This document shows, in pieces, positions 32,029 to 54,494 of a stretch of DNA of 64,000 nucleotides. Source of the stretch: Halogeometricum sp. S3BR5-2 (GTDB taxonomy: Archaea; Halobacteriota; Halobacteria; Halobacteriales; Haloferacaceae); assembly GCF_031624635.1 (NCBI RefSeq), contig NZ_JAMQOQ010000002.1, positions 434,001-498,000 on the forward strand, in the 5' to 3' direction. The translations under genes were made by a program, and so were the position numbers. How positions within the stretch are numbered: the stretch's first letter is position 1; each line of letters opens with the position of its first letter. The notes beneath the pieces are model-generated. The model made no database searches. It worked only from the letters and a program-made list of their open reading frames with translations, and was not told the origin of the DNA.

Positions 32029-33420
32029 CTACTCCTCGCGCCGAAGCGTGAGCCAACAGACCAGCAGGCTCATCGCCGCGAGCGAGACGACGAAGCCGAA
32101 GCCGGGCGTGGAACCGCTCGTCTCCGTGCCGCCGGCGCCGACTTCGGTGTTTACCTCCGTCGCGGGCGCGGCCGTCTCCTCCGCCTCAGTCGCGGACGCC
32201 GCCGTCGGCGTGGCCGTCGACTCCGCCGTCGCGGCGGCCGTTTCGGTCGCCGTCGGCTCGTTCGCGGCGACGGTCACGGTGCCGGCGGCGATGGAGTTGA
32301 CGCCGAGGGCGTACGTGCCGGGGGTGTCGAAGGTGATGGAGAAGTTCACCCTGCGGCTCTCCCCCTCGTCTATCTCGACGGCTCGGCTGTACTCCGTCTC
32401 GTTGCCGTCGACGTACAGTCGCGCGTCGAACTCGCCGTCGGCGTCGCCGGAGTTCTCGACGAGCGCCGAGACGAGCACCGCGTCCCCGACGCTCCCGTTC
32501 GTCGCGTTGAGTTCGACCGACTCGACGGAGAACTCCGGTTCGTCCGCCGAGTAGCCGCCGCCTCCGCCGCCGCTACTCCTGCTACTGCTGTCGTCGTCAT
32601 CGCTGCTGCTGTCGTCGTCATCGTCGTCGCTGCTACTGCTGTCGTCGTCCTCTTCGGCCGGAACCGGGGTTTCGGTTTCCGTTTCGGTCTCGGTCTCAGT
32701 CTCCGTTGCCGTCTCAGTCGCGGTTTCCGTTTCGGTCTCCGTAGCCGTTTCAGTCTCCGTTTCGGTCTCCGTAGCCGTTTCAGTCTCCGTTTCGGTTTCT
32801 GTCTCCGTTGCTGTCTCAGTTTCCGTCTCGGTCGCGGTTTCGGTTTCTGTCTCCGTAGCCGTCTCCGTCTCGGTCTCGGTCTCGGTCGCAGTCGGCGTCT
32901 CGGTCTCGGCCGCCTCGACGCTCACGGTCACGTCGTTGAACGTTTCTGGGACGACCGTCTCGCCGTCGGCGGAGGCGAACTTCGTCTCGGACTCGTCGAA
33001 CGAGAGCGCCGCGCTCTCGCCGTCCTCGCCGGTCACTTCGAGCGTTATCTCGGCCAGCACGGGACCGTCGACGTTCGACCCGCGAATCTGGTTGAACGCG
33101 ACGCTACCGTCCTCGTTGTCGACGTTCGCGATTGGGTCGCCGAAGTCGTCGCTCCCCGAGACGTCAGTCACTTGGACAACGTCAGCGTCGTAGGTGAGCG
33201 TCGTCTGATAGCCGCTCACGTCCGTGGCGTCCGCCCACACGCTCACCGTGACGGTCTCGCCCGGTTCGGCGGTGAGCGTCCCGTCCGGCGACGACGTGAC
33301 CTCCTCGCCGACGCTGATGGTGGAGGCGGTCTGCGCCCCGACCGGGGCCGCGCCGGCCGGTAGACCGACGAGCAGTGCGAGGACGACTCCGAGCACCAGC
33401 GCCCGGTTCGCGCCGCTCAT
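32029..33420 (-). CDS. Cell-surface protein with cohesin-like domain, CARDB-like domain and PGF-CTERM anchor
   Basis: A 463-residue secreted protein. Signal peptide at 1-29 (ALVLGVVLALLVGLPAGAAP). Residues about 34-170 read as a cohesin-like beta domain: ISVGEEVTSSPDGTLTAEPG, SGYQTTLTYDADVVQVTDVS and AEITLEVTGEDGESAALSF. A Thr/Glu repeat linker (170-250), an Asp/Ser block with a Gly run (255-283) and a CARDB-like domain (LVENSGDADGEFDARLYVDG) follow. The end, TPGFGFVVSLAAMSLLVCWL with RREE, is a PGF-CTERM signal processed by archaeosortase A, so it is anchored in the membrane lipid. Its start overlaps the stop of the upstream dockerin-bearing phosphoesterase (ATGA). Probable role: docking platform at the surface. 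Confidence 0.85.
   Translation of the reverse strand: MSGANRALVLGVVLALLVGLPAGAAPVGAQTASTISVGEEVTSSPDGTLTAEPGETVTVSVWADATDVSGYQTTLTYDADVVQVTDVSGSDDFGDPIANVDNEDGSVAFNQIRGSNVDGPVLAEITLEVTGEDGESAALSFDESETKFASADGETVVPETFNDVTVSVEAAETETPTATETETETETATETETETATETETETATETETETETETATETETETETATETETETATETATETETETETETETPVPAEEDDDSSSSDDDDDDSSSDDDDSSSRSSGGGGGGYSADEPEFSVESVELNATNGSVGDAVLVSALVENSGDADGEFDARLYVDGNETEYSRAVEIDEGESRRVNFSITFDTPGTYALGVNSIAAGTVTVAANEPTATETAAATAESTATPTAASATEAEETAAPATEVNTEVGAGGTETSGSTPGFGFVVSLAAMSLLVCWLTLRREE
32660..32915 (-). repeat. Thr-Glu coding repeat tract
   Basis: About 250 bases of short repeats built from GTCTCGGTTTC-type hexamer variants encode a (TE)n(TAT)-like linker in the cohesin protein. 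Adjacent DNA (about 32560-32655) codes an Asp/Ser block and a Gly run. Such tracts can vary in length between strains by slippage. The linker is probably O-glycosylated, since Thr is repeated. Confidence 0.8.
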
Positions 33421-34619
33421 TGTCCCCCCTCGCTGATGTTCCGCACGCGAATCGCATCGCCGATGTCCACGTCGCCGTCGTCGTCGACGTCCGCGGCCTC
33501 CGTGTCGATGTCGACGTCCTCGCCGGCGATGGAGCGCTGGATGGCTTCGACGTCGTCATCGTCCACGTCGCCGTCGCCGTCGGCGTCGCCCGCGAGCGGT
33601 CCGTCCGAAGCGGACCCGAAGCGGGCGTCGAAGTCGAGGTCGAAACCGAACTCGCTGTCCCCGTCTTCGAGGTACTCGTCCTCGCTGGGCGAGTACGTCT
33701 GGACCTGAATGCGGTCGGGGTCGTCCCCGCTTCCGCCGCCCGGTTGGAACCGAATCTGTCGGAGCAGTCCGTACCCGCCGTTGTCGCGGTCCTGGAAGTT
33801 CGACAGCAGTTCGTACACATCCTCGCCGTCGTCGTTCGAGGAGACCTGGTCGGCTTCGCCGTCCCCCCTGTGCCAGTGGCCGCAGAGGACCATGAACACC
33901 TGCGAGTTCGGCGAGATGAGCTCTTCCCACACCGTCTGGCCCTCGGTTCCGATGCCGTTCTCTTCCTGTACCTGCAGGGTCCGGCGCTGCGGGGAGTCCC
34001 GGAGGTACGAGTGCGTGCTGACGATGGTCGGTCGGTCGGGGTACTGTTCGAGGACGCTCTGCGCCCACCCCAACGCGGTCGAGGCGTCGTCTATGTCCCC
34101 CGGAATCTCCCACTCCAAGGCGAGGTGGAGGAAGTCGTAGCCGCCCGCGGAGAACAGTTGGTAGCTGTTGAGGTCCTCCGGTCCCGCGTTCTGGGACGCC
34201 CCGAAGTACTGCCGGTAGTTCTCGATGGACGACGTGCGGTCGCCCTGCGTCGCCCAGTCGTGGTTGCCGGGGAGCGTCGAGAAGGAGATGTCGTCGAGGG
34301 GTGCGAGCGCCTCCGCCATGTGCTCCCACTCCGCCTCGACGTCGCCGTTCTCGACCACGTCGCCGAGGTGGCTGACGTGGACGATGTTCTCCGAACCGAC
34401 GTTGTCGACGACCCACTCGGCCTGGTCCCGCGGATACGACGTCCTGTCCTCGGCATAGAACTGCGTGTCGGGGAGGGCGACGACCGTCCACGGCTCCGCG
34501 CTCTGAGCGGCCCCGGCCGTCGCGCCGATTCCCGCCAGCGTCGCGCCCGCACCCAACGCACGCAGAACGGTTCGTCTCGTCGGACCCGACCACCCCGTCG
34601 TCTCGGGGTCGACAGTCAT
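33417..34619 (-). CDS. Tat-exported metallophosphoesterase with C-terminal dockerin
   Basis: A 400-residue exported enzyme. Twin-arginine signal at residues 12-44 (TRRTVLRALGAGATLAGIGA). The calcineurin-like phosphoesterase core has VVALPDTQFYAE, HVSHLGDVVENGD, LPGNHDWATQGD, VSTHSYL and LCGHWH, i.e. the five metal-binding blocks. A linker leads to the last about 57 residues, which hold two Ca-binding loop segments, DADGDGDVDDDD and DVDDDGDVDIGD, each followed by a short helix (VEAIQRSI and AIRVRN). This is the dockerin type I pattern. The next gene, coupled by ATGA, encodes a cohesin-like anchor. The substrate (phospho-mono- or diester) is unknown. Confidence 0.87.
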   Translation of the reverse strand: MTVDPETTGWSGPTRRTVLRALGAGATLAGIGATAGAAQSAEPWTVVALPDTQFYAEDRTSYPRDQAEWVVDNVGSENIVHVSHLGDVVENGDVEAEWEHMAEALAPLDDISFSTLPGNHDWATQGDRTSSIENYRQYFGASQNAGPEDLNSYQLFSAGGYDFLHLALEWEIPGDIDDASTALGWAQSVLEQYPDRPTIVSTHSYLRDSPQRRTLQVQEENGIGTEGQTVWEELISPNSQVFMVLCGHWHRGDGEADQVSSNDDGEDVYELLSNFQDRDNGGYGLLRQIRFQPGGGSGDDPDRIQVQTYSPSEDEYLEDGDSEFGFDLDFDARFGSASDGPLAGDADGDGDVDDDDVEAIQRSIAGEDVDIDTEAADVDDDGDVDIGDAIRVRNISEGGQ

Positions 34620-35021: not shown

Positions 35022-36158
35022 TCAGTCGGACGCTTCGACTGCTCTCCGCGGTTCGAGCGAGTCTATCATCTCGACGACTTCGGTGTCGAGTCCGTGCTCG
35101 GTCCAGTTACGCTCCCGCGGGATTCGGGCGCAGTACGTTCCGACGTCCTCGAACAGTTCCTCGAACACCTCGCGTTCGCGCCGAATCACCTCGTCCAGCG
35201 ACTCGATCATGGCGCCGTCGCCGACGAGGGAGTCGTAGGCGTGGAAGTACTCTCTGAGCCGACCGTCCCACTCGAAGTTGCAGATGGAGGTGATTCCCTT
35301 CATCGCCTCCTCGGTCGAGAGGGGTTCGCTGGTGACGTGACGGTTGTTGGGCGCCGCCTGCAGGAAGACGATGTTGTCGACCGAGGAGCGTTCGACGTAC
35401 TCGGCGGTGGAGTACAGCGAGCCGACGTCCGTGAAGTCGCGGCCGTCGTCGGAGAGGAACTTCCCGTTCAAGTAGAGAAGCGCCGTCGCCGGCAGTTGAT
35501 CCGCACCGCCGAACCGGTCGTCGACGTACTCGTGGACCTCGTGGCGGAGTCGGTCCTTCAGCGAGTCGTGCGTGAGTTCCACCTCGGAGAACGACTCGAT
35601 GTTGTAGGGCTGGAGGTTCACGCCCAACGGGTAGCCGAACGCCTCCCCGTCCGCGCCGACCCAGAGCCGGTCGTCCGAGAGGAAGTTCGCGCCCTCGCGG
35701 AGCAGGGAGAGGAGCGTGTTCGTCTTACCGGCCCCGCGCCAGGCGGGGAACAGCGTCGTCTTCCCGTTCAACTGGACTCCGGAGGCGTGTACGAGCGCTC
35801 TGCCCTCCTCGACCATCCGCTTGCGTATCTCGAACTCCATCGGGTAGATGGCGTAGAACGGCTCGAATCCCGGCGTGACTTGGATGTGGTCCCATCCGGG
35901 GGTGACCGCCATGAACGAGGTGCCGTTGCGGATTACGAACTGCTCGCCCGTCCAGCCGTAGTAATCCTTCGGGTCGCCGAGGACGACGTCGGGGTCGACG
36001 TCCTTCGTCGTCTCCTCGATGACTATGTCGGGTTCGCGCCCCGGCGACGCCACCCGGAAGTGGTCGTACATCTTCCGAAACTGTTCGTCCGTCCGTCCGC
36101 CGGAGCCGCTCACCTCGACCAACAGACCGTCGAAGAACTCGTAGTGATGTTTGTTCAT
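35022..36158 (-). CDS. HPr-kinase-like ATPase
   Basis: A 378-residue protein. The P-loop WRGAGKTNTLLSL begins at about residue 140, followed by FLSDDRLWVG (Asp pair after the P-loop) and ALVHASGVQLNGKTTLFPA directly before it, the layout of the HprK/P C-terminal kinase domain. There is no N-terminal HprK domain and no PTS system nearby. HprK-related kinases occur in polysaccharide and lasso-peptide loci, where they phosphorylate a Ser/Thr or a sugar; the substrate here is not known. Its gene is followed leftward by the phosphoesterase-cohesin operon and starts the surface-glycan locus. The start is preceded by an imperfect palindrome. Confidence 0.75.
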   Translation of the reverse strand: MNKHHYEFFDGLLVEVSGSGGRTDEQFRKMYDHFRVASPGREPDIVIEETTKDVDPDVVLGDPKDYYGWTGEQFVIRNGTSFMAVTPGWDHIQVTPGFEPFYAIYPMEFEIRKRMVEEGRALVHASGVQLNGKTTLFPAWRGAGKTNTLLSLLREGANFLSDDRLWVGADGEAFGYPLGVNLQPYNIESFSEVELTHDSLKDRLRHEVHEYVDDRFGGADQLPATALLYLNGKFLSDDGRDFTDVGSLYSTAEYVERSSVDNIVFLQAAPNNRHVTSEPLSTEEAMKGITSICNFEWDGRLREYFHAYDSLVGDGAMIESLDEVIRREREVFEELFEDVGTYCARIPRERNWTEHGLDTEVVEMIDSLEPRRAVEASD

Positions 36159-37146: not shown

Positions 37147-38667
37147 TCAGATCATGTCGCGGATGTCTTTGATGTCGTGGAGGATGTTCCAGTTGATGCG
37201 CGAGTCGAGCACCACGACGGCCGCGGCGTACGTCACCACGCCGATGAGGACGAGGACGATGAGTTCGACGAACGCCGGAACCGACGTCACGACCTGTCGG
37301 GTCCAGTAGACGGCGGCGCCCATAAACACCGCCGCCGGCAGGGGGTAGGCGAACTCCAGCAGTAGCCGTCGGAAGTCGGCCTCGACGGACTTCGCCGCCA
37401 GGTAGGTGTCGAGCGGGAACATGATCACCGCGTAGACCGCCGTGATGACGAACGCGGTGCCGGTGAGGCCGTACTCGACCGTGGCCGGGTAGATGGGAAT
37501 CGCCATGAAGACGATGGCGACGAGTTGGAGTTTCACCAGGTAGTCGGGGTGGCCGGTCGCCTGCCAGACCGACCCGTACGCGGAGACGAACCCGCGTATC
37601 ATCCCGTAGACGGCGAGAATCTGCATCGGGACGACCATCGGCATCCACTGCTCGCCGAGGACGGCCTCGACGAACGTCGGCGCGACCATCGCGATACCGA
37701 TGGCCATCGGGGCCGCCAGGAACGAGGAGATTCGCACCGTCTTGTAGAACGCCGGTCTGAGCCGGTCCAAGTCGCCCTGTATCTCCGAGTAGGCCGGGAA
37801 GGAGACCGACGAGATGACGTGCGTCACCTCCGTCGCGGGCGCGTTCGAGAGCCGGTACGCCATCTGGTAGAACCCGAGCGAACTCGCCGCGAGGAGCCAT
37901 CCGACGAAGTGGTCGTCCCCCTCGTTCCGGATGTAGTTGGTGATGCTCGCGCCCGTGATCCACTTACCGTAGTCGAACATCTCGCGAGCGCGTTCGACGT
38001 CGAAGCGCGGCCGCGGACGGTAGCCGTGGAGGATGTAGGACAGAATCGTCCGAATCACGTTCCGGGCGAGGTAGCCGACGACGAGCGCCCACGCCGTCGG
38101 ACTCCAGAGCGCGTACGCGAACGCGGCGATGAAGTACGCCGCCTCCCCGCCCACGTCGTACACGAACTCCTTGTGGAAGACCAGGTCCTTCCGGAAGTAG
38201 AGTATCGCCGGGTTCCGAAGCCCGAGGACGAGCGGTCCGAGCGCCATCACCGGAAGGATGTCCACGACGACCGACTCGCTGTAGAAGCGGCCGATGAAGG
38301 GGGCGCTGAGGTAGAGTAGTCCCGCGAGGACGGCCCCGCGAACCGCGTTCATCATCCACGCGGTGTCGAGGTACGGGTCGACGTTCGACTCCCGGTTGTA
38401 GATGAGCGCCTCGTCGAGGCCGAGTTTCGAGAAGCGCTCGAGGCCGATGATGACCAGCATGCCGATAGCGACGATACCGAACGCTTCCGGCGTGAGGAGC
38501 CGGGCGAGCAGAATCGCCGTCAGGAGCTGGAAGACGCGCCCGGAGACGTTGAGCGCCGTCGCCCAGATTCCGCCGGTGACGGCCCGCTCCCCGAGCGTCC
38601 CGCCGGGCGTGAGCACCTGCTTGAGTCGGACGAACGCGTTCCGGAACCAGTCGATGATGTTCGGCAT
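37147..38667 (-). CDS. Wzx-type lipopolysaccharide/oligosaccharide flippase
   Basis: A 506-residue protein with about 14 hydrophobic helices of the MATE/Wzx (polysaccharide transport) superfamily. The start MPNIIDWFRNAFVRLKQVLT is followed by GGIWATALNVSGRVFQLLTA, the usual first helix of RfbX/PST proteins. The half-way repeat begins at ASITNYIRNEGDDHFVGWLL. Wzx flippases move lipid-linked oligosaccharides to the outside of the membrane. In this locus it would export the repeat unit made by the adjacent glycosyltransferases. Confidence 0.92.
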   Translation of the reverse strand: MPNIIDWFRNAFVRLKQVLTPGGTLGERAVTGGIWATALNVSGRVFQLLTAILLARLLTPEAFGIVAIGMLVIIGLERFSKLGLDEALIYNRESNVDPYLDTAWMMNAVRGAVLAGLLYLSAPFIGRFYSESVVVDILPVMALGPLVLGLRNPAILYFRKDLVFHKEFVYDVGGEAAYFIAAFAYALWSPTAWALVVGYLARNVIRTILSYILHGYRPRPRFDVERAREMFDYGKWITGASITNYIRNEGDDHFVGWLLAASSLGFYQMAYRLSNAPATEVTHVISSVSFPAYSEIQGDLDRLRPAFYKTVRISSFLAAPMAIGIAMVAPTFVEAVLGEQWMPMVVPMQILAVYGMIRGFVSAYGSVWQATGHPDYLVKLQLVAIVFMAIPIYPATVEYGLTGTAFVITAVYAVIMFPLDTYLAAKSVEADFRRLLLEFAYPLPAAVFMGAAVYWTRQVVTSVPAFVELIVLVLIGVVTYAAAVVVLDSRINWNILHDIKDIRDMI

Positions 38668-39172
38668 CTACCCGGACACTCTATTCTGCCTGTCGGTTTC
38701 GATCCGGTCACCGTCTCCGCACCGCCGACCGCGGACGCTCCGGTCCCGCCCGTCCCGCGTCCGCGGGCCGCCTCCGTGAGTACGGAGGCGACGCGGGGGC
38801 GATTCCGGTACGCGACCGATTCGGACAGTCTCGTTCATGTTTTTCGTCAGTTGTGATTTTAGCCAGTTAGTTAATTAGTGTAAACCCGGACTGAACGACT
38901 CGTAAAACCGAGGAATCAAGTCCGTAACGGTCGTACCCTCCGATAACGGGTAGGTGGGTCGATTACGCCTGAATGTCGGCTAACGGCTACCTACCCCGCG
39001 AACGGTCGGTCAAAATACATAGTAGGAGCGAATTAACAAACCCGAATCATATCTCATACTTCGTTCATGGACAGAAGATTCTCCCGAGACGCGGGGAGGC
39101 CTCCGTCGCCCTCCGTACGCGGTGGTATCGCACAGAGCCGCGCCGGCGGGCGCGGAACGGAGACGCTCGACG
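38668..39172. other. Divergent promoter region of flippase and GT4 operon
   Basis: About 500 bases without a gene, AT-rich at 38840-38890 (TTTTAGCCAGTTAGTTAATTAG) and at 39010-39070 (ACATAGTAGGAGCGAATTAAC), which suit promoters of the leftward flippase and rightward GT operon. An eight-base inverted repeat GGGTAGGT/ACCTACCC spans 38948-38996 with a 33-base spacer. Confidence 0.45.
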
Positions 39173-40507
39173 ATGGCTGACTCGCGCGACCGCATCGTCG
39201 TCGTCTCCCAGCAGTTCCCGCCCGACACGAGCGGTCACGCCTCGCGGATGCGTGACATGACGACGAACCTCCAGCGGATGGGCTGGGACGTCGACGTCCT
39301 CGTCCCGCCGCCGAGTTTCCCCCACGGGGAGTTCGAGCAGCGGTGGAGCCGAAGCGAGACGCGGGAGATGGACGGGGTTACCGTCCGTCAACTGTGGAGT
39401 TGGCAGCCGACAGAGTCCGACCCGCACGCCCTCTCGCGGCTCGCGTACTACATCACGTTCGCACTTCACGCGACGCTGTGGCTGCTGTTCAACGCCCGCC
39501 GATACGACGTGGTCCTCACGACCACGCCGCCCATCTTCACCGGGATGGCGGGGTTCGTTCCCTCGCTCACCGGTACCCGGTGGGTCGTCGACGTCCGTGA
39601 CCTCTGGATCGACGCCTCCGTCTCCCTCGGCTTCATCGAGGAAGGCGGGATTCTGGAACGGGCCAGCCGGGCGTTCCAGCGGCGGGTGCTGAGACGCGGC
39701 GACCGCATCGCCGTGACGACCGAGATGCTCGGCGAGGAACTCTGCGAGCAGTACGGCGGGGAGTTGGCCGAGAAGATGCTCGTCGTCCCCAACGGCGTCG
39801 ACATGTCCCGGTTCGGCGTCGAAGTCGGGTCGAAGGACGCCTCGAAGGTTTCCGTCCCCGCCGGCGGCGCCGACTCCGCCGAGTCGACCGGCTCGCCGTC
39901 GTCGGACGAGCGCCCGGTCATCGTCTACGTCGGGAACATCGGTCACGCGCAGGACCTTCCCGCCTGCATCCGCGCGATGAACCTCATCGACAACGACGCG
40001 GAACTCAAACTCGTCGGCGGCGGCGACACCGTCCCGCAGCTCCGACGGCTCGTCGAGGAGGAGTCCCTCGAAGACCGGGTGACGTTCGTCGACCCGGTCC
40101 CCCGCGAGGAGGTTCCCGAACTCCTCTCGGAGGCGGATATCGGCATCGCGCCGCTCGTCAAGGACGAGGAACTCGCCTACGCCATGCCGACGAAGGTGTA
40201 CGAGTACTTCGGCTGCGGGCTCCCCATCGTCGTCACCGGCTGCGGCGAACTGCGGCGGTTCGTCGAGGAGTCCGGCGGCGGCATCCACGTCGACAACGAC
40301 CCGAGTCGTATCGCCGCCGCGTTCGACAGACTGCTCGAAGACGAGGCGCTGCGCACCGAAATGGGCACCCGCGGGCACGAGTTCGTCCGGACGCGGTACG
40401 ACCGCCGCCGCATCGCCGAGCGGTTGGACGACAGCGTCCGGCAGCTCATCGGGAGGCGCGGACCGGCCGACGGCTCCGCGCCGGCGGCCAGCCGTGATCT
40501 GTCGTGA
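39173..40507 (+). CDS. Glycosyltransferase family 4 (WbuB-like)
   Basis: A 444-residue GT-B enzyme from the ATG of MADSRDRIVVVSQQFPPDTS. The N-terminal Rossmann domain has GHASRMRDMTTNLQRMGWDV; the C-terminal nucleotide-sugar half starts at VIVYVGNIGHAQDLP and carries the family EX7E-like acidic segment in TKVYEYFGCGLPIVVTGCGE. This matches WbuB-type sugar transferases of surface glycan loci. It overlaps the heparinase-like gene by four bases (GTGA). The donor and acceptor sugars are not readable. Confidence 0.92.
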   Translation: MADSRDRIVVVSQQFPPDTSGHASRMRDMTTNLQRMGWDVDVLVPPPSFPHGEFEQRWSRSETREMDGVTVRQLWSWQPTESDPHALSRLAYYITFALHATLWLLFNARRYDVVLTTTPPIFTGMAGFVPSLTGTRWVVDVRDLWIDASVSLGFIEEGGILERASRAFQRRVLRRGDRIAVTTEMLGEELCEQYGGELAEKMLVVPNGVDMSRFGVEVGSKDASKVSVPAGGADSAESTGSPSSDERPVIVYVGNIGHAQDLPACIRAMNLIDNDAELKLVGGGDTVPQLRRLVEEESLEDRVTFVDPVPREEVPELLSEADIGIAPLVKDEELAYAMPTKVYEYFGCGLPIVVTGCGELRRFVEESGGGIHVDNDPSRIAAAFDRLLEDEALRTEMGTRGHEFVRTRYDRRRIAERLDDSVRQLIGRRGPADGSAPAASRDLS

Positions 40508-42435
40508 GCGGCGACTCCTCCTCGCGCCGGTTCGCGGACGTGCGGACGCTCTCGCTGCTGTTCCGGACGGTGTCGAACATGGAACCCAGACAGCTCGCCG
40601 GCGTGGCCGACCGGAAGCTCCGACACGCCGTCGTCCCGCGGTCGCCGGTCGATTTCGACGCCCGGTACGACCGGCGAGTCCCCGACGACCTCACGTGCAC
40701 GCCGGGACCCCTCCGAGCGAACACGACCGTGCTGCGCCGGAGCCTCTCGGACGCGGACCGCTCTGACTTCCGCGCCCGCGCGGCCGAGGCGGCGGACGGC
40801 GAGGTCACCTTCCTCGACCGCACGATTCGCGTCGAGGGCCCCGACGGGGTCGGGTGGCACAGCGAGGCGGTGTACGAACCGCCGGCGCTCTGGGCGCTGA
40901 AGTTCCACGGGTTCGAGTTCCTCCGAGGGGCGTACCTCGGCCACGACGACCCGACCGACTGCCCGGCCGCGACCGAGACGTTCCCGCGCTGGATCGCCGA
41001 CTGGCAGGCCGACGAGAGCACGGACATCGGGACCGAGGCCTACCTCCGGCGCGCGTGGACGCCCCACTCCGTCTCGTTCCGCCTCCTGAACGCGGCGCGG
41101 TACTACGCGTGGGTCGGGGCCGACGAGCGGCATCCGGCGCTCGCGGAGCGGTTGCACCGCCTCCTCTACCGCAACGCCTCGTTCCTCTCGAACCACGTCG
41201 AACACGACATCGGCGGGAACCACCTCATCGAGAACGGCATCGCCCTCGTGGTCGCGGGACTGCTGGTCGACGACGCCGGCGACCCATGGGTCGACGCGGG
41301 CGTCGAGGTGCTGGCCGACGCCGCCGACCAGTTCCTGGCCGACGGCGGCCACTTCGAGCTGAGTCCGATGTACCACGTGCTCACGCTGACGCGGTATCTG
41401 ACCGCGCTCGACCTCCTTCGGCGGTACGGGCGGACGCCGCCGGCCGAGATTCGAGAGGCCGCCGAGCGGGGGACCGCGTTCCTGCGCGCCATCGCGCCGC
41501 CGGACGGGCGGCTTCCGCTCCTCAACGACTCCGTCCACGGGGAGTCGCTGTCGCTCCGGGCGTGTCTCCGCTACGCCAGCGCGGTCGGCGTCGACCCCGG
41601 GCCGTCGACGACGACGGCGCTGCCGGACTCCGGCTACTACTGGCTCGGCCGGAGGGACGACGCGATGCTGGTCGACGCCGGCGGAATCGGCCCCCCGCAC
41701 CTCCCGGCGCACTCGCACAACGACCAGTTTTCGGTCCTGCTGTGGGTCGACGGCCGGTCGGTTCTAACGGACACCGGGACGTACGAGTACGCGCCGACCG
41801 ACAGGCGACAGCGCACCCGGAGCGTCGCCGCCCACAACACGGTGCAGTACGGCGACGTCGAACCGATAGACATCGCGGGGAGCTACCTGATGGGCCGGCG
41901 CTTCGACCCGAGGGTACGCTACGGCGTCGCCGACGGCGTCACCGCGTTCGACGGCGCCTACCGGCGGACGGGTCGCGACGCCTACGCCCACCGCCGCCGC
42001 ATCTACGCCGCCGACGACTGGTGGCTCGTCTGGGACCGCGTTGCCGCCGACGAGGCCCGCCCGGTCCGCAGCAGACTCCACGTCGACCCGGACATCGCCG
42101 TCGACGCTCCGGCGTCCGCCGACGCAGACGCGGGCGCGGCCGGCCTCGAACTCCGGCCGGACGACGGCGACGGCGCGGACCCGCTCGCCTACCTGTACCC
42201 GCTCGACGCGGCGGAGACGACCGTCGGGACCAGCCCGTACTTCCCCTCGTTCCTGACCGAGGTCGAGCGGCCGTCGGTCACGCTCCGCTCGTCCGGCGCG
42301 GACGTCTCGTTCGGCTTCCTGTTGTCGACGCGCCCGCACGAGACCGTCGCGCTCGAACGCGACGGCGACGACCCGCGCGCGCTGTCGCTCGACGGGAGCG
42401 ACCGCTCGCTCCCGGACTCGGACCGACTCTCCTGA
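40504..42435 (+). CDS. Heparinase II/III family polysaccharide lyase
   Basis: A 643-residue protein with the alpha-toroid N-terminal lyase domain (GNHLIENGIALVVAGLLVDD, typical of the (alpha/alpha) barrel) and a C-terminal heparinase II/III beta domain with AHSHNDQFSVLLWVDGRSVL and TDTGTYEYAPTDRR. Family members cleave uronic-acid polysaccharides by beta-elimination. There is no signal peptide. GTG start at 40504, overlapping the GT4 stop by four bases, so it is produced with a synthesis enzyme. In such loci it may trim or edit the polymer rather than degrade it. Confidence 0.87.
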   Translation: MSGDSSSRRFADVRTLSLLFRTVSNMEPRQLAGVADRKLRHAVVPRSPVDFDARYDRRVPDDLTCTPGPLRANTTVLRRSLSDADRSDFRARAAEAADGEVTFLDRTIRVEGPDGVGWHSEAVYEPPALWALKFHGFEFLRGAYLGHDDPTDCPAATETFPRWIADWQADESTDIGTEAYLRRAWTPHSVSFRLLNAARYYAWVGADERHPALAERLHRLLYRNASFLSNHVEHDIGGNHLIENGIALVVAGLLVDDAGDPWVDAGVEVLADAADQFLADGGHFELSPMYHVLTLTRYLTALDLLRRYGRTPPAEIREAAERGTAFLRAIAPPDGRLPLLNDSVHGESLSLRACLRYASAVGVDPGPSTTTALPDSGYYWLGRRDDAMLVDAGGIGPPHLPAHSHNDQFSVLLWVDGRSVLTDTGTYEYAPTDRRQRTRSVAAHNTVQYGDVEPIDIAGSYLMGRRFDPRVRYGVADGVTAFDGAYRRTGRDAYAHRRRIYAADDWWLVWDRVAADEARPVRSRLHVDPDIAVDAPASADADAGAAGLELRPDDGDGADPLAYLYPLDAAETTVGTSPYFPSFLTEVERPSVTLRSSGADVSFGFLLSTRPHETVALERDGDDPRALSLDGSDRSLPDSDRLS

Positions 42436-42598
42436 CTCGCGGCGTCCCCGGCGACGTCCACGAGACGCCCCGGGACGCCCGTTCGCGGGCGTATGCCGTC
42501 TATAACAATGCCCCGTCTGTCCCACCCTACGACCAGGACCGGCCGCGGCGCAGCGTCGCGGTCACGCACGGCGATTCGCCGTGCCGACGGAGACTGAC

Positions 42599-43372
42599 AT
42601 GGTAGACATCTCAATCATCATCCCGACGCTCGAAACCGACCCGACGTTCGGTTGGGAAGAACAGCTCGAAGCCGCGTCCGTCGAGGGGGAGGTCATCCTC
42701 CGCGGCGACGCGACGGCATCGGCGGCCCGGAACGAGGGTATCCGGCGGGCGAACGCCGACAAACTGGTGTTCCTCGACGACGACTCCGACCCGCGACCGG
42801 GCTACTTCGACCGCGTGTCCGCGCTCTTGGACGAGCATCCGGCGGTGACGGGTCGAATCATCGACACCGGCGCGCAGATAACCCGCGGGCTCTCCTCGCA
42901 GTACGACCAGGGCGCGGAGGGGCACGTCACCGACGTCGTCGTCGGCTGTAACATGGCCGTCCGGCGCTCCGTGCTGGAGGACGTGGGCGGGTTCGACGAA
43001 CGCCTCCCGTACGGCCACGAGGAGACCGAACTCGCGAACCGCGTCTCCGAGAAGTACGACTTCTGGTACGACCCGGACCTCGTCGTCGCCCACCCGTTCG
43101 CGGACTCGCTGTGGGACTACTACGGCAAGGCCTACCGGCACGGCCGGGAAGCCGTCCCGTACTACCTCATCCGGGGAGAGAACGTCCGCCTGCGACTCCT
43201 CACGCAGATTCTCCTCCCGACGAACTACCTCGGCGACTCGCCGCGGGAGACGCTGTTCGAGGCGACCAGTCAGGTCGCTCGGTCGGTGGGGCTCGTCCAC
43301 GGCTACCTGAAGTACGCGCGGGACGGACGGTCGGCGGCGTACGCCGGACGAAAGCGGACGATAGAAGAGTGA
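42599..43372 (+). CDS. Glycosyltransferase family 2
   Basis: A 257-residue GT-A fold enzyme. The start is the ATG of MVDISIIIPTLETDPTFGWE; an upstream in-frame start would add six residues. It has FLDDDSDPRPGYFDRVSALL (DXD metal and nucleotide motif), VVVGCNMAVRRSVLEDVGGF and the acceptor motif YGHEETELANR. It transfers a sugar from a nucleotide donor to a lipid- or sugar-linked acceptor. The gene lies 163 bases after the lyase gene in the same direction. Confidence 0.92.
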   Translation: MVDISIIIPTLETDPTFGWEEQLEAASVEGEVILRGDATASAARNEGIRRANADKLVFLDDDSDPRPGYFDRVSALLDEHPAVTGRIIDTGAQITRGLSSQYDQGAEGHVTDVVVGCNMAVRRSVLEDVGGFDERLPYGHEETELANRVSEKYDFWYDPDLVVAHPFADSLWDYYGKAYRHGREAVPYYLIRGENVRLRLLTQILLPTNYLGDSPRETLFEATSQVARSVGLVHGYLKYARDGRSAAYAGRKRTIEE

Positions 43373-43484
43373 CCGCATCCTCACCCGTTCCCCTCGCGTC
43401 GGCCCCCGCGAAACCGGTTTCTGGGGACGTTAGCCGCTTCCTACCGAGCGATGCTTTTAGACGGATCAGGTACATTCTCCAGCT

Positions 43485-44483
43485 ATGGTAAGTCGCTCCC
43501 TCGGAGAGCAGGCGCCGGAGGCGAGCGCCGCGGCGGCGTTCCTCGACCTCGCCGTCGCCGCCGTCCTCGCCGTCGCCGCCTTCGGTCTCGCGGTGGCGGT
43601 CGGCCCCTCCGCGCTCCTCGCTCCGGTCGCAGTCGTCCTCGGCGCACTGTACGTACTCGTGCTTCCCGGGTACGCGCTCACCGCCGCGCTCTTCCCCGCG
43701 CGGTCGCCGTCCCCGGAGACCGTCCCCGTGAACCACCCGACCGTCTCCGCGGCGGAGCGGGCGGCCCTCGCCGTCGGACTGAGTCTGATGGCCACCCCGT
43801 TGGTCGTGCTCGGGCTGAACTTCACCGAGTTCGGCATCACGCGGCTATCCGTGCTCGTCGGACTCTTCGCCGTCGTCGCCGTCGGCCTCGTCGTCGCCGC
43901 CGTCCGACGCGCGAGAGTCCCGCCCCGCGAGCGGTTCCGACTCCCGCTCTCCCGCCTCACGGGCGGGCCCGGGGGTATCGGCTCCCTCCCGAAGACGCAC
44001 CTCCTGATCGCCGCGTTCCTCCTCGCGTCGGCCGGACTCGCCGGCGCGACGCTCGCGGAACCGCAGAACGGGGAGCGCTACACGGAATTCTACTTGCTAA
44101 CCGCCAACGGCGAGAACGGCACCCTGGTCGCCGACCAGTTCCCGTCGCAACTCAGCCCGACCGAACCCCGGTCCATCTACGTCGGCATCGGCAACCACGA
44201 GGAACGGACCGTCGAGTACACCGTCGTCACCGAACTGCAGCGGCTCGAAACGGTCGACGGTCAACGCCGCGTCGCCGCGGAGAGCGAACTCGAGCGGTTC
44301 TCCACGACGCTGCAAGCGGGCCAGACGTTCCGCGGGCAGCGCGAACTCAGGTCCCGTTCGTCGGTGACCGGCGAGCGCCTCCGACTCATCTTCCTCCTCT
44401 ACCGGGGGTCGCCGCCGGAGAACCCGACGGAGGAGAACGCGTACCGCTCGACCCACGTGTGGGTGAACGCGACGGCGTCCTGA
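43485..44483 (+). CDS. DUF1616 family membrane protein
   Basis: A 332-residue protein. The N-terminal half has four or five membrane helices (LDLAVAAVLAVAAFGLAVAV, then PVAVVLGALYVLVLPGYALTA with AAERAALAVGLSLM, the DUF1616 hallmark), and from about residue 175 is an outside domain beginning after the last helix. The domain has EFYLLTANGENGTLVADQFP and FRGQRELRSRSSVTGERLRL. DUF1616 proteins are common in archaeal S-layer and glycan loci; their role is unknown. It is followed by two coupled small and large genes. Confidence 0.87.
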   Translation: MVSRSLGEQAPEASAAAAFLDLAVAAVLAVAAFGLAVAVGPSALLAPVAVVLGALYVLVLPGYALTAALFPARSPSPETVPVNHPTVSAAERAALAVGLSLMATPLVVLGLNFTEFGITRLSVLVGLFAVVAVGLVVAAVRRARVPPRERFRLPLSRLTGGPGGIGSLPKTHLLIAAFLLASAGLAGATLAEPQNGERYTEFYLLTANGENGTLVADQFPSQLSPTEPRSIYVGIGNHEERTVEYTVVTELQRLETVDGQRRVAAESELERFSTTLQAGQTFRGQRELRSRSSVTGERLRLIFLLYRGSPPENPTEENAYRSTHVWVNATAS

Positions 44484-44494
44484 ACTCTCGAACC

Positions 44495-44569
44495 ATGAAC
44501 GACAACACATTCGACCGACCGAACCGCCTTCCGACCGACCGTCCGACGAGCGGAGGGGCCGAACGATGA
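44495..44569 (+). CDS. Possible 24-residue coupled small ORF
   Basis: MNDNTFDRPNRLPTDRPTSG runs to a TGA that overlaps the ATG of the next gene (ATGA). The position and the hydrophilic composition would suit translational coupling, but nothing independent confirms expression. Confidence 0.25.
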   Translation: MNDNTFDRPNRLPTDRPTSGGAER

Positions 44570-46398
44570 GCGCGTCGTCGGTCCGCAGACCGGACACGGG
44601 ATGGGTCGTGACCGCCGGGTTCGCGCTCGTCGTCGCGCTGACGTACATCCTGTTCTCGACGCCCTCGGCGAGCGCCTACGAGATGTCCATCTACGAGGCG
44701 TACCCGTGGTACTTCTGGGCGCTGGCGGTGCTCGCGCTCCTCATCGGCCACTACGCAGTCCTCGAACGCGTCTTCGGCGGCGAGTCCGAAGGCGGGGCGT
44801 GGCGACTCGGCCTGCTGTTGATACTGGTCGTCGAGGCGCTCCTCCTGTTGCTCCCGTACTTCCGGGGCTACCCGGTGTTCGGGCGCGGGGACGTGCTGAC
44901 CCACGTGGGTCAGATCGTCACCATTCAGGCGACGGGTATCGCCGGCCAGCAGGACATCTACCCGAACCTGCACTTCCTCGTGCTGAGCCTCTCGTACGCC
45001 AGCGGCGTCGAACCGATGCACCTCATCAACTCCGTCGGCGTCGTCATCTCGCTGTTCTCGCTCGTGGCGTCGTTCGCCCTGGTGACGACGGTGTACGACC
45101 GGACGCGCGCGTTCCTGTCGCTGCCGTTCGTGACGCTTCTCATCGGCGGGACGGCGCACGTGAACCCCTCGCCGTACCCGCAGAGCGTCCTGCTCGTCCC
45201 GTTCGTCCTCTACCTGTTCTTCAAAGAACAGCGGACCCGGTCGACGGCGGTGCGCGTCGCTCTCGTCGTCACCGCCGCGGCGATGGTCGTCTACCACCCC
45301 CTGACGACGCTGTTCCTCCTGTTCGTCTTCGGCGTCTACACCGCGGCGAAGTTCGTCCACGACCGGGGGCTGCTGCCCGGCGCGTCGGGGGAGTCCGGCG
45401 AGTGGCGTAGCGCGGTCGGCGCGACGCCCGTCGCCCACCTCGCGCTCGGGATGTTCGCCGCGTGGTACTTCGACTTCTCGCAGGTGACCGGGAAGATACA
45501 GACTGTCGTACAGACGTTCCTCACCACCGAGAGCGGGACGTCCACGCTCGACTCCTACAGTTCCACCGTCTCGGAGGCCAGTCCGGCGCTGATAGACCTC
45601 GTCCGTATCGGACTCGTCCAGTACGGCGTGTCGGCCATCCTGCTCTCGCTCGCGGGGCTCTACGCGCTCTGGGCCCTCTCGTCGGCGGAGCGCCGCCGCG
45701 ACCTCGGCGTCTACCGGACGACGTTCCTCGGCGGGTTCGCGCTGTTCGCCGGCCTCGCGGTTCCGTTCCTCGTTATGGACCTCGTGGTCGGGTTCGGCCG
45801 ACCGCTCATGCTCGCCCGCATCTTCGCCGCCCTGCTCGTCGGGTCGCTGTTCTACGCGCTCTACCGCTCGGCCGACGCGGGCGGCAAGCGTATCGTTCAG
45901 GTCGGCTGTTACGTCGTGCTGGCGTGTCTCGTCGTCATCAGTACGTTCGGGCTCTACTACTCGCCGTACGCCATCGAGCGGAACCACCAGGTGACGAACG
46001 CCGAACTCGACGGCGCCGACTGGACGCTGGAGTTCCGAGAGCCCGACAACCCGACGATACAGTACGGCATCAACCTCCGCCGGTTCCGCGACGCGCTGTA
46101 CGGGACGGCGGGTTACACCGAGGACGAGGTGATTCCGGCGAGCACCACCGTCGGACCCCCGCCGCACTTCAACTACACCGAGCACGACACGCTGGGTGCG
46201 AGCTATGACGAGAATCGGTACATGATCATCACCCGGAGCGGACGCATCTTCTACGAGGAGATGTACCCCGACTACCGGGAGTTCTGGCAGTTCGACGACG
46301 GCGACTACGCGCGCCTCGAACGCGACGGGACGGTGTCGCACGTCTACGCCAACGGCGGCTACGACACCTACCTCGTCAACAGCACCCAGACCGCGTAG
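44566..46398 (+). CDS. Multi-pass membrane protein, GT-C-like
   Basis: A 610-residue protein with about 12-14 hydrophobic helices in the first 450 residues and a C-terminal soluble domain of about 150. After the second helix comes the segment YFRGYPVFGRGDVLTHVGQI, whose Asp in an outside loop resembles the catalytic acidic motif of GT-C transferases. The rest of the membrane part (SQVTGKIQTVVQTFLTTESG, then GYTEDEVIPAS) gives no clear family. It may transfer a sugar from a lipid-phosphate donor. It ends the operon on this strand. Confidence 0.65.
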   Translation: MSASSVRRPDTGWVVTAGFALVVALTYILFSTPSASAYEMSIYEAYPWYFWALAVLALLIGHYAVLERVFGGESEGGAWRLGLLLILVVEALLLLLPYFRGYPVFGRGDVLTHVGQIVTIQATGIAGQQDIYPNLHFLVLSLSYASGVEPMHLINSVGVVISLFSLVASFALVTTVYDRTRAFLSLPFVTLLIGGTAHVNPSPYPQSVLLVPFVLYLFFKEQRTRSTAVRVALVVTAAAMVVYHPLTTLFLLFVFGVYTAAKFVHDRGLLPGASGESGEWRSAVGATPVAHLALGMFAAWYFDFSQVTGKIQTVVQTFLTTESGTSTLDSYSSTVSEASPALIDLVRIGLVQYGVSAILLSLAGLYALWALSSAERRRDLGVYRTTFLGGFALFAGLAVPFLVMDLVVGFGRPLMLARIFAALLVGSLFYALYRSADAGGKRIVQVGCYVVLACLVVISTFGLYYSPYAIERNHQVTNAELDGADWTLEFREPDNPTIQYGINLRRFRDALYGTAGYTEDEVIPASTTVGPPPHFNYTEHDTLGASYDENRYMIITRSGRIFYEEMYPDYREFWQFDDGDYARLERDGTVSHVYANGGYDTYLVNSTQTA

Positions 46399-47070
46399 AC
46401 CGACCGCGGCGGCCCTCGCTCGTCTTGTAACTGGCCTCGTTCTTCGATGCTCGACGCCCGACGCTTTTCGTTCCGTCACCGCCCGTCTCCGAAGACGGGC
46501 GCGTCCCCTCCGCGGGCGACGACGCGCCGGCGATTACGTCGCCGCGGCGCGTTTCGTATACCGACTCCACTGGGCGACGTGCCTTCCGGTACCACACCGC
46601 CGGGCACCGCTCCGTCGAGCATCGTCTCGGTCGGTCCCCCGCGGTGACACGGTGACCGTGTCTCGCCTCGCTCGTCGTTCGGACGACTTCGGGACGACGC
46701 GGCAGCGTCCGAGTCACTCCCGCACCGAACGCGGCCGCCGGACCGCTTCGACCGCGACCCGAAGACCCACTCCCTCGTGAGCGTCCGCTCCGTCGGAGGT
46801 TTCGTAGTAGAGGGGACGGCGTCCGCGGTGTGCGACGAGGAACTCGTTCGCGTCCGTCCGCGTCTTCGTCTCCGCGTCTCTTCCAGCACTCTTCGAACGC
46901 CGCCGTCGCACGTCCGGTTCTCGCGGGAGGCGCGTCGCCGCGCGACTCGCGAGGGCACGAGTCATCCGCTCGTCGACGGCCGAAGCGCCGAACGGCGACA
47001 GCCGTCGACTCGTCGAACCGTCGAGAGAAGAGCGTCCGGTCGGGAATCGTCGCGCGTCCGAATCTGCGGG
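46399..47070. other. 672-base gene-free spacer between convergent operons
   Basis: No gene is convincing here. Several short frames on either strand (for example 46714-46965 reverse, beginning MTRALASRAATRLP) give basic, Arg-rich translations not like haloarchaeal proteins. A strong stem-loop at 46480-46501 probably ends the rightward operon. The remainder may be a decayed gene. Confidence 0.45.
46480..46501 (+). terminator. Strong GC stem-loop behind the membrane protein gene
   Basis: CGCCCGTCT and AGACGGGCG are exact complements with a four-base loop CCGA: a nine-base-pair stem 80 bases after the stop codon. There is no long T run after it, so it may stabilise the 3' end or bind a factor rather than terminate in the classic way. 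Confidence 0.5.
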
Positions 47071-48174
47071 CTACCGGCCGGAGACGATAGCGTCGATGGC
47101 GGCGACGAGTTGGTGCCCGATTGTCTCGGGGTCGTTCTCCGCTCGTACTCGCGTCCGGGCGTTCTCGCCGAGGCGTGCGCGGTCGTCGTCGTCCAGCAGT
47201 CGCGTCACCTGCGCCGCCACCTGTTCGGACGTCGCCTCCTTCAGGACGACGCCGGTCTCGCCGTCCTCGACCTGTTCGACCATCCCGTGAGCGGCGTTGA
47301 CCATCGCGGGGAGCGCGGATTGCTGTGCTTCGAGCACCGACCGCGGGTAGCCGTCGATGTGCGAGACGTAGACGAAGGCGTCCGCGAGGGCGTAGAGGTC
47401 CGCGACGTTCTCCACGAAGCCGAGCGCGTGGATGCGGCCGCGGACGGCCGGGTCGGCGATGGCGTCGACCGCCGCCCGCACGTCGTCGAGGTAGGCGCCG
47501 CCGCCGGCGACGACGTAGGCCACGTCCTCGTGCGAGGCGAGCACGGACTCCATCCCCTCGACGATAGTGCGGACGCCGTCGTACTTGCTGGGGTATTTGA
47601 GGTTCGTCACGGTCAGCAGCACCGTCTCCGCCTCGATACCGAACCGCTCTCTCGCCGCCCGCGCCGACCCGTCCTCCCGGTCGGGGACGAGGGGCACGTG
47701 GACGACGTGCACCTGCTCCGGCCGACAGCCCGTGCGCTCGACGACCACGTCTTTCAGTTCCGCGGAGACGACGACGTAGCCGCGGGCCGACCGGTAGATT
47801 GCCTCGTCGAGGGCGTACGTGAGGTAGTATCGAAGCTTCGTCGCGAAGCCGTCGTCCTTCCCCGTCCGGTATATCTCCTCTAACCCCTGCCAGTGGTTGC
47901 CCTTGAAGCGGAAGACGAACGGGACGCCCCGGAGGACGCAGATGGCGGCGACGAGGAACCCGAGCAGTCCGAGGCAGTCCGACAGCACGGCGTCCGGCTT
48001 GGGGTCGCTGGTCAGTTCGAGCAGCCGAGTGACCGTGTTCAGGTTCCGTTCGAGGAAGCCGTCAGAGGGGTCGATATCGACGAGTTGGACCGTGCCGTCG
48101 GCCAGCGACAGCGGTTCGGCTACCTCGTGGGAGCGGTGCGCAGTCACCGCCGCGATGCGGAGCGCGTCGGTCAT
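47071..48174 (-). CDS. Glycosyltransferase family 4
   Basis: A 367-residue GT-B enzyme. The start is the ATG of MTDALRIAAVTAHRSHEVAE at 48174; a longer open frame upstream is the shadow of the neighbour gene. It has the GT1/GT4 C-terminal marks: VLLTVTNLKYPSKYDGVRTIV, VYVSHIDGYPRSVLEAQQSA (EX7E region) and VEDGETGVVLKEAT. The N-terminal part (FRFKGNHWQGLEEIYRTGKD) is usual for this group. The stop of the upstream GT4 gene overlaps its start by four bases (ATGA), so they are coupled. Confidence 0.9.
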   Translation of the reverse strand: MTDALRIAAVTAHRSHEVAEPLSLADGTVQLVDIDPSDGFLERNLNTVTRLLELTSDPKPDAVLSDCLGLLGFLVAAICVLRGVPFVFRFKGNHWQGLEEIYRTGKDDGFATKLRYYLTYALDEAIYRSARGYVVVSAELKDVVVERTGCRPEQVHVVHVPLVPDREDGSARAARERFGIEAETVLLTVTNLKYPSKYDGVRTIVEGMESVLASHEDVAYVVAGGGAYLDDVRAAVDAIADPAVRGRIHALGFVENVADLYALADAFVYVSHIDGYPRSVLEAQQSALPAMVNAAHGMVEQVEDGETGVVLKEATSEQVAAQVTRLLDDDDRARLGENARTRVRAENDPETIGHQLVAAIDAIVSGR

Positions 48175-49355
48175 TCCAGCGCCTCGCGGTGGAGTCGGTG
48201 CACCCGTTCGGCGTGGTCGTCCCACGTCCACCCCTGTTCGAGGAGGCGCTCGCGCCCCTTGCGACCCATCTCCAGCAACCGTTCCCGGTCGCCGGCCAAC
48301 TCGGTCAGCGCCTCGCGGAGCGCACCGGTGTCGCCCGGCGGTATCAGCACGCCCGTCTCGCCGTCCGCGACCTGTTCGGGGATACCCCCGACGGTTGTCG
48401 AGAGCACGGCCGTCTCCGACGCCATCGCCTCGTAGATGACGGTCGGCCGTCCCTCGGCGTGGCTGGGGAGGACGAGCACGTCTGCGACGGCCAGCCATCG
48501 GCGCAGTGCCATCGAGGTGATGCCGGTGTACACGTGGCGGGCGGAGAACCGACTCGACGCGAGGGAGCGCCGGAGCGTCCACTCCTCGTCGCCGCCGTGG
48601 CCCACGAACACGAACTCGGTGTTCGGGAGGTCGAGGTCCGGGAGGACGTCGGCCAGTTCGGGGATGCCCTTTCGCTCGCAGAACTCCCCGACGAACAGCG
48701 CTACCGTCGCGTCCGGGTCGATGCCGAGTTCCTCGCGGAGTTCCGTCTTCCGTTCGACGGGGTACCGGGAGGGCGTCGCTCCGATGGGAACGACTTCGAC
48801 CTTCGAGCGCGGGACGCGCCGCGCGGCCTTCTCCGCGAGGGCGTCGCTGACGCAGAGCACCTTTTCCGCGGCGTCGAGCGTCTCGTCCACCTTCTCTCGC
48901 ACGTCGTCGGCCAACTCGTCGTACTCGTTCATGAAGTGCCCGTGCGAGACGACGAACAGGGGGACGTCGTGCCGTTCGCAGTAGTCGACCATGCCGTAGC
49001 CGTCGAGGTAGATGTGGCAGGCGTGGACCACGTCCGGAACGTCGAACGTCTTCTCGACGTACCGGGGAACCCGCTTCGCGAAGGAGTCGCCGGCCCGTCC
49101 GTAGAACAGTCGCTTCGGCAGCAGGTAGAAGAACCGGGGGTGGTGGACGCCGTAGCCGTCCCACTCCTCGACTGTCGGGAGCATCGAATACTCCGAGTGT
49201 GGGCCGACCGGCGGCGCGAACGGCCGCGGCGAGACGACGTCGACGTCCATCCCGCGCCGCATGAGCGACTGGACGATCCGTTGGTTGAACAGTCCGATGT
49301 ACGGATTGATGGCGTCCGGATGGTTGACTGCGCTCGCCAGAACGCTGTGAGTCAT
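48171..49355 (-). CDS. Glycosyltransferase family 4
   Basis: A 394-residue GT-B enzyme beginning MTHSVLASAVNHPDAINPYI. The C-terminal half has ATVALFVGEFCERKGIPELA, VLPSHAEGRPTVIYEAMASE (the EX7E acid pair) and VADGETGVLIPPGDTGALRE. It is the first gene of a two-gene operon with another GT4 downstream, with the promoter in the AT-rich stretch before 49355 (GTAGAATTCGCCCTAAGTTATA). The sugar donor is unknown. Confidence 0.92.
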   Translation of the reverse strand: MTHSVLASAVNHPDAINPYIGLFNQRIVQSLMRRGMDVDVVSPRPFAPPVGPHSEYSMLPTVEEWDGYGVHHPRFFYLLPKRLFYGRAGDSFAKRVPRYVEKTFDVPDVVHACHIYLDGYGMVDYCERHDVPLFVVSHGHFMNEYDELADDVREKVDETLDAAEKVLCVSDALAEKAARRVPRSKVEVVPIGATPSRYPVERKTELREELGIDPDATVALFVGEFCERKGIPELADVLPDLDLPNTEFVFVGHGGDEEWTLRRSLASSRFSARHVYTGITSMALRRWLAVADVLVLPSHAEGRPTVIYEAMASETAVLSTTVGGIPEQVADGETGVLIPPGDTGALREALTELAGDRERLLEMGRKGRERLLEQGWTWDDHAERVHRLHREALE

Positions 49356-49596
49356 TGCGGTATCTAGGGTAGAATTCGCCCTAAGTTATATCACACCTAC
49401 TGAACGAATCCTCGGGTCTGCGTCCCGCGCGACCGGGTCTCTCGGTGCCCCCGATACGCCCGAAAGCGGCAGACTGCGCCGGGCGTGCGAAGCTGCGTCG
49501 GCGTCGCAGCCATCGGGTCGCCTCCTCCGCATCTCGAACACGACGGGCGGATAGAGAGTAAGTAACTATTTGGGTAAGATAACTGAAGTATGCTAC

Positions 49597-51357: not shown

Positions 51358-51524
51358 GCCGGCAGTCGGCCGTACCGCACCGAGAGACCTCCCGCCGCCT
51401 CGCGCTCTCCCGACAGAACGCCTCCGAGACGCGCTCTGCGCGGAGTTAGGTGGCGGCTTCGCTTCACGAATCAACTTATGCACTGCAAAAATAAAGCCAC
51501 CGAACGCATCGATACGGTAGAACA

Positions 51525-52949: not shown

Positions 52950-53183
52950 TCCGCCGCTCCCGGTCCGTCCGACGCGCCGCTCCCTTCTCTCGGTTCCCTT
53001 CGCGCCGCCGCGAGTCCGCCGACGAGCAGTCGCGTCGTCGAGCGGCTTCCTTCCCTTCTCGACCACCGGACGGGGCCCACGCGGCGCTGAGCGGTCGCAG
53101 CGTGCGCTGGGCGCCGACGAGCGACCAATCACACGAATGCGGGCGGCGGACCGAGAAGGAGAGCCGTTCGGGCGTCGATTCGA

Positions 53184-54176: not shown

Positions 54177-54350
54177 GTGGCTACAGGGTACGGCGGATAG
54201 CGGATATAGTTATGGAGCGTACAATTCTGAATTCGGCCCCCTCCGGGCGTGAAACTATCGTTTCGCGAAGATGTCCGCGACACCGCCGGCGCCGGTCGAC
54301 GGTCGGTGAGAGGCTCCATACTTTTAGGGACCGAGAGGGTTCTTCGTACC
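54177..54350. promoter_or_regulatory. Divergent promoter between the two short AP-type genes
   Basis: The leftward gene has ATAACTATATCC about 26-37 bases before its ATG, a good TATA position for a leaderless transcript. The rightward side has CATACTTTTAGG at about 54317, about 30 bases before the ATG at 54351. Confidence 0.4.
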
Positions 54351-54494
54351 ATGGCGCTCTCCATTCCCCGTGGACGCTCGTTCGTCGGCGCTGCCGACGT
54401 GATTCGCGGACGCCCGGTCACGACGACGGCGACCGTTCGAGAGCCGACCGCATCGACCGAGGGTCGAACCGCGACCGACGGAACTCGCCGATGA
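54351..54494 (+). CDS. Possible 47-residue leader ORF of the short AP-type gene
   Basis: A frame beginning MALSIPRGRSFVGAADVIRG ends with a TGA overlapping the ATG at 54491 (ATGA). It begins just behind a TATA-like CATACTTTTA (about 54317). It is therefore well placed to be translated and coupled to the next gene, but the composition is Arg/Thr-rich and the product unrecognised. Confidence 0.35.
   Translation: MALSIPRGRSFVGAADVIRGRPVTTTATVREPTASTEGRTATDGTRR

Follow-up and report, generated by a model that had tools for sequence, protein, structure and literature searches.

A translationally coupled phosphoesterase-dockerin and cohesin-anchor gene pair, a likely surface-display module in Halogeometricum

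Cohesin-dockerin pairs are already known, archaeal ones included, for which binding has been established (PMC9012536; PMC9705933). The cohesin and dockerin modules of the non-cellulosomal pair from Archaeoglobus fulgidus associate with high affinity (PMC9705933), and ANME archaea encode scaffoldin-like proteins that bear as many as five cohesins and whose cargo includes, e.g., transporter binding proteins (PMC9012536). The gene pair described here is located in the genome of Halogeometricum sp. S3BR5-2, in a window (the whole stretch of DNA that was analysed) of 64,000 nucleotides, and consists of a metallophosphoesterase-dockerin gene (33417..34619, 400 aa) and a cohesin-bearing anchor gene (32029..33420, 463 aa), both encoded, as are all features within them, on the minus strand. 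Like the A. fulgidus pair, it is archaeal and has a single cohesin and no multi-cohesin scaffoldin, and the A. fulgidus cohesin (2xdh) ranks 23 among the PDB fold matches of its receptor domain (TM 0.65). It differs in having an exported phosphoesterase as the cargo, a CARDB domain and a PGF-CTERM-like tail on the receptor, an ATGA overlap of the two genes, and halophilic proteins.

Bacterial cellulosomes, with their type I and type II cohesins and anchoring scaffoldins, share with this locus the combination of an enzyme-borne calcium-loop dockerin and a cell-surface (here predicted) cohesin, the best profile matches being Acetivibrio ScaB cohesins. However, the Halogeometricum anchor carries one cohesin, the cargo is not a glycoside hydrolase, an archaeal tail takes the place of SLH or sortase anchoring, and the two dockerin halves are unlike; instead of a multi-cohesin scaffoldin, the genome encodes just two cohesins that score over the Pfam cut-off. 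The ANME proteins resemble the present, predicted surface pair as archaeal surface proteins outside cellulose degradation, but no coupled enzyme/anchor gene pair was described in that work (PMC9012536). Some haloarchaeal subtilases (L205, L232) are also exported dockerin enzymes followed by a cohesin gene with a hydrophobic tail, but their cargo is a protease that has its own internal cohesin. Genes for such S8 subtilases, in which a single chain contains both domains (L205:1310-5501, L232:430-4582, L212, and L218; the cohesin of one of them scored below the report level), are followed by small cohesin genes that encode hydrophobic tails.

The initial annotation of this DNA had named the pair as its best candidate for a new system. 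The new element is a module of one enzyme and one anchor, conserved and coupled in translation, that combines a phosphoesterase as cargo with an archaeal tail, whereas the cohesin-dockerin principle is established in archaea as elsewhere and both domains are common in the order. A literature search returned no earlier report joining Halogeometricum and cohesin, with a prior listing in the 2009 survey of non-cellulosomal cohesins being possible.

The enzyme was matched by the Metallophos family (PF00149) in a full-length hmmscan with an E value of 1.1e-9 and 39.5 bits against a cut-off of 21.5. Its N terminus contains a twin-arginine signal region (TRRTVLRALG..., 34509..34619) in which the TRR is invariant in the 6 aligned copies from the genus and no lipobox cysteine was seen; TIGR01409 scored 11.8 bits here, under its cut-off of 16.7. 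The calcineurin-like catalytic domain (33630..34490) displays the GD, GNHD, H203, and GHWH motifs; over 32 sequences, D51, Q53, D87, H203, and H248 are invariant, and N119 and H120 nearly so. Motif I reads D-T-Q, a variant of D-x-H, in all 32 relatives, with the other active-site motifs kept, so that both the score and the metal-ligand motifs place the protein among calcineurin-like metallophosphoesterases with a variant motif I. An AlphaFold2 model of the enzyme (pLDDT 79.6) matched purple acid phosphatases, Lmo2642, and 5'-nucleotidases, and extracellular hydrolysis of phosphate esters is the probable activity of the cargo. Most of the 24 bacterial relatives of the enzyme have no dockerin; one from Planctomycetota (L079) carries a clear two-loop dockerin, and another (L093) gave a single loop match.

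At the C terminus of the enzyme, a type I dockerin domain (PF00404; 33438..33593) scored 25.5 bits in a scan of the last 66 residues alone (cut-off, 22.9) and 24.7 bits, with agreeing coordinates, in a six-frame search of the genome; in the full-length hmmscan, the score of 19.9 fell just under the cut-off. Its two 12-residue calcium loops, DADGDGDVDDDD (33552..33587, residues 345-356) and DVDDDGDVDIGD (33456..33491, residues 377-388), are spaced by 32 residues in 21/21 dockerin-bearing relatives, all of which have Asp at ligand positions 1, 3, 5, 9, and 12 of the first loop and Asp or Asn at the ligand positions of the second. Each loop is followed by a helix in the enzyme model (residues 354-365 and 386-398), giving the two loop-helix repeats of a type I dockerin. 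The initial annotation had thus read this end of the gene correctly as a double Ca-loop with a helix after each loop, and the twin-arginine N terminus and the PF00149 match likewise uphold its description of a Tat metallophosphoesterase. Since both loops keep their acidic ligand positions in 21/21 relatives, binding by the dockerin would be expected to depend on calcium; loop conservation offers no hint of calcium independence, and the unusual binding at high salt that the initial annotation considered is speculative. The two halves differ at recognition positions 10-11 (T/G/S/D/E-D versus I-G) and 17-18, in place of the near-symmetric residues for dual binding that are typical, although not universal, among dockerins. 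A symmetric dual mode therefore appears unlikely, and a single binding orientation likelier. Dockerins with a single binding mode exist (PMC8063739), and for that reason the asymmetry does not exclude membership in the type I group.

A double loop of this kind could also be a calcium-binding stabiliser or a substrate-binding module, in which case the neighbouring cohesin-like domain would be an unrelated beta-sandwich adhesin. Dockerins of haloarchaeal mannanases and of a polysaccharide lyase have indeed been called substrate-binding (PMC10963439; PMC13260240), and an Asp-rich loop can readily evolve in an acidic halophilic protein; nevertheless, Pfam scores over the cut-off for both domains and the cohesin-specific fold matches of the receptor speak against this explanation, which, together with the linkage data below, makes it improbable.

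The anchor gene encodes a probable Sec signal peptide (33331..33420) followed by a cohesin domain (32917..33279; 37.2 bits for PF00963 in the six-frame genome search). A single-domain scan of residues 31-172 gave 37.6 bits and an E value of 3.1e-9 (cut-off, 24.1), a significant match that, with cohesins making up all of the 46 best fold matches, substantiates the cohesin-like N-terminal domain proposed by the initial annotation. The full-length hmmscan of the anchor did not match Cohesin, a false negative, as the domain-alone scan showed, that is probably due to the repetitive linker. A phmmer comparison of the single anchor with PDB sequences yielded just a weak cohesin match (E value of 0.93), and profiles and a fold search were therefore used. 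With a profile built from 21 orthologous cohesins, the top PDB matches were bacterial scaffoldin cohesins, with Acetivibrio ScaB at an E value of 2e-7. The receptor domain was modelled with AlphaFold2 from three sequences, with moderate confidence (pLDDT 72.3, pTM 0.69), and the 46 best PDB matches of the model are all cohesins, led by 4uyp (E value of 2e-9, TM 0.74). As modelled, the domain appears to adopt the nine-stranded jelly-roll fold of cohesins, DSSP assigning about ten short strand elements. Residues Y41, Q42, N80, Q81, and R83 are invariant in the 21 sequences. In profile alignment coordinates, which derive from a weak match (E value of 0.48), Q42 falls on chain position 37 of 2y3n, a type II cohesin whose Gln37 forms a hydrogen bond with its dockerin (PMC8063739); this putative equivalence is a lead, not proof.

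Downstream of the cohesin, a Thr-Glu repeat and an Asp/Ser/Gly-rich linker (32539..32907) are followed by a CARDB domain (PF07705, 33.2 bits; 32296..32538, residues 295-375) that was absent from the initial annotation. The protein ends in a PGF-CTERM-like tail (32032..32121) consisting of PGFGF, a hydrophobic helix, and RR. The PGF-CTERM anchor proposed at the outset holds in part: TIGR04126 scores 19.0 bits on the tail, under its curated cut-off of 24.5, but the tail has the expected layout and the same genome encodes archaeosortase A (TIGR04125, 350 bits). The PGF motif, the hydrophobic helix, the basic end, and the presence of ArtA are together those of an archaeosortase A substrate; in Haloferax, this enzyme cleaves and lipid-anchors PGF-CTERM proteins (PMC8875312).

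The two genes are joined by a 4-base overlap (33417..33420), also part of the original reading, in which the TGA stop of the enzyme gene and the ATG start of the anchor gene share the sequence ATGA, an arrangement for translational coupling. The identical overlap occurs in most of 21 such pairs, and in the others the two genes are at most a few bases apart. These pairs came from a comparison of enzyme relatives drawn, with their flanks, from 392 genomes of the order and from the genus, several of which are drafts; linkage was scored with local cohesin and dockerin profiles, the former built without members of this enzyme-anchor family. Among the 30 haloarchaeal relatives, all 21 enzymes that bear a dockerin are followed immediately 3' by a cohesin gene in the same orientation, which is the orthologue linkage that the initial annotation had made a condition of its proposal, whereas none of the 9 dockerin-less enzymes has a cohesin in the fetched flank (Fisher's exact test, p 7e-8, indicative only, as shared ancestry is ignored).

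In a tree of the catalytic domain, most dockerin-bearing enzymes fall into one clade, and for that reason the 21 pairs are not independent. The tree also contains a well-supported sister pair (97/98), one member of which (G220) has both dockerin and cohesin and the other (G272) neither; at least one joint gain or loss of dockerin and cohesin has therefore taken place in the family. Both the strict pairing (21/21 versus 0/9) and the joint presence or absence in these sisters argue against a stabilising or substrate-binding loop next to an unrelated adhesin. That explanation can draw on the observation that cohesins also stand alone: in 40 other haloarchaeal cohesin regions, a dockerin was present in 11, and in 29 none was nearby. 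Of 20 control regions from the genomes of these 40, none contained either domain. Given that ratio of 11/40 elsewhere, strict pairing is a property of this module and not of haloarchaeal cohesins generally.

The six-frame search of the 4.66-Mb genome detected 2 cohesins and 3 dockerins over the cut-off; each of the two cohesin genes lies immediately after a dockerin gene, a pairing that exceeds chance. Within the order, a cohesin over the cut-off was found in 131/392 genomes and a dockerin in 164/392; both are common in haloarchaea, and the pair is therefore not an isolated oddity. The second pair in the genome (G000:C3, L075) is paralogous, with a phosphoesterase, a CBM96 domain, and a dockerin, followed by a cohesin anchor; its dockerin is nearly identical to that of the first pair and its cohesin is related, so that cross-binding seems likely. 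Both pairs are also present in H. pallidum and in the genome designated G004. In the latter, the anchor gene of the second pair (L074:3500-5448) is interrupted by stop codons downstream of an intact cohesin, and the enzyme and its dockerin are intact, as if the second enzyme could borrow the anchor of the first pair. What looked like a frameshift in the second anchor of H. pallidum (L071) was discounted, as the tract contains undetermined bases and represents an assembly gap.

These paralogues raise the alternative that both domains work but that their main partner is another cohesin or another dockerin protein, with the gene pairing being regulatory only. The near-identical dockerin and related cohesin of the second pair would fit such an arrangement, as would the broken G004 anchor beside its intact enzyme, but the genome has only the two cohesins over the cut-off, each beside its own enzyme, and the third dockerin protein (G000:C4) belongs to a different class, which leaves this alternative very improbable.

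Several other dockerin and cohesin genes were observed in the course of these searches. On contig C4 of the same genome, a protein with PKD repeats (L076:4812-7754) carries a strong dockerin (41 bits), and the adjoining gene encodes a cohesin-like product that has a hydrophobic tail and no match in Pfam; the two perhaps represent a second class of pair. Two haloarchaeal genomes (G091 and G268) carry clusters of 11-12 cohesins with 7-14 dockerins. Several secreted haloarchaeal proteins end in 'V.AINWWAT...V.QL.N.WATG' repeats (e.g., the L191 C terminus and L076:60-4688), which resemble a dockerin-like duplication lacking calcium ligands.

We consider it highly likely that the Halogeometricum pair forms a translationally coupled one-enzyme/one-anchor surface-display module. 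Its observed basis consists of the domains in both proteins, the receptor domain's fold, gene coupling, and the joint gain and loss of dockerin and cohesin; binding, its calcium dependence, surface location, and catalysis belong to the predicted part. Its role is very probably to tether the enzyme to the cell surface. The phosphoesterase would be exported via the Tat pathway and, lacking a membrane anchor itself, would otherwise be released. Through the ATGA overlap, the anchor would be translated in step with the enzyme, yielding a receptor with one cohesin; its tail would be processed or retained at the membrane, and its CARDB domain and Thr-Glu stalk may space the cohesin from the membrane. 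The calcium-loaded dockerin would then dock on the cohesin, placing one enzyme per receptor at the cell surface.

The gene neighbourhood suggests a possible substrate. A gene for an HprK-like P-loop kinase (35022..36158, minus strand, 378 aa), which the initial annotation did not include, recurs next to the pair; its HprK_rel_B score of 31.9 bits is far under the cut-off of 200. It was found near 16 of the 21 pairs, often adjoining genes for glycan synthesis, near 1 of the 9 dockerin-less enzymes (that of G272), and in 0/60 other regions. Within the order, it occurs in 18 of the 392 genomes, beside the pair in 13 of them. Upstream of the module, positions 37147-55399 of the window contain a surface-glycan cluster with a polysaccharide flippase, glycosyltransferases, and a sulfatase, and in some relatives glycosyltransferases, sulfatases, or a polysaccharide flippase are also found near the pair. 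With glycan genes and the HprK-like gene nearby, the enzyme could possibly act on a phosphorylated surface glycan. A more specific three-gene scheme, in which the HprK-like kinase acts in the cell to phosphorylate a surface-glycan precursor or component and the tethered phosphoesterase removes or trims the phosphate at the surface, is rather doubtful. If it were true, the cohesin-dockerin tether would keep trimming local, as a free enzyme would diffuse off in brine.

The proposed surface-display module, with a single enzyme and a single receptor encoded in step, is a small, testable example of how cohesins and dockerins can serve display in a setting other than cellulose breakdown, here in archaea that inhabit molar salt, and a pair adapted to high salt might serve for surface display in Haloferax-type hosts. 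It also suggests that dockerins of haloarchaea, to which recent papers assign substrate binding, can serve to tether proteins to anchored receptors.
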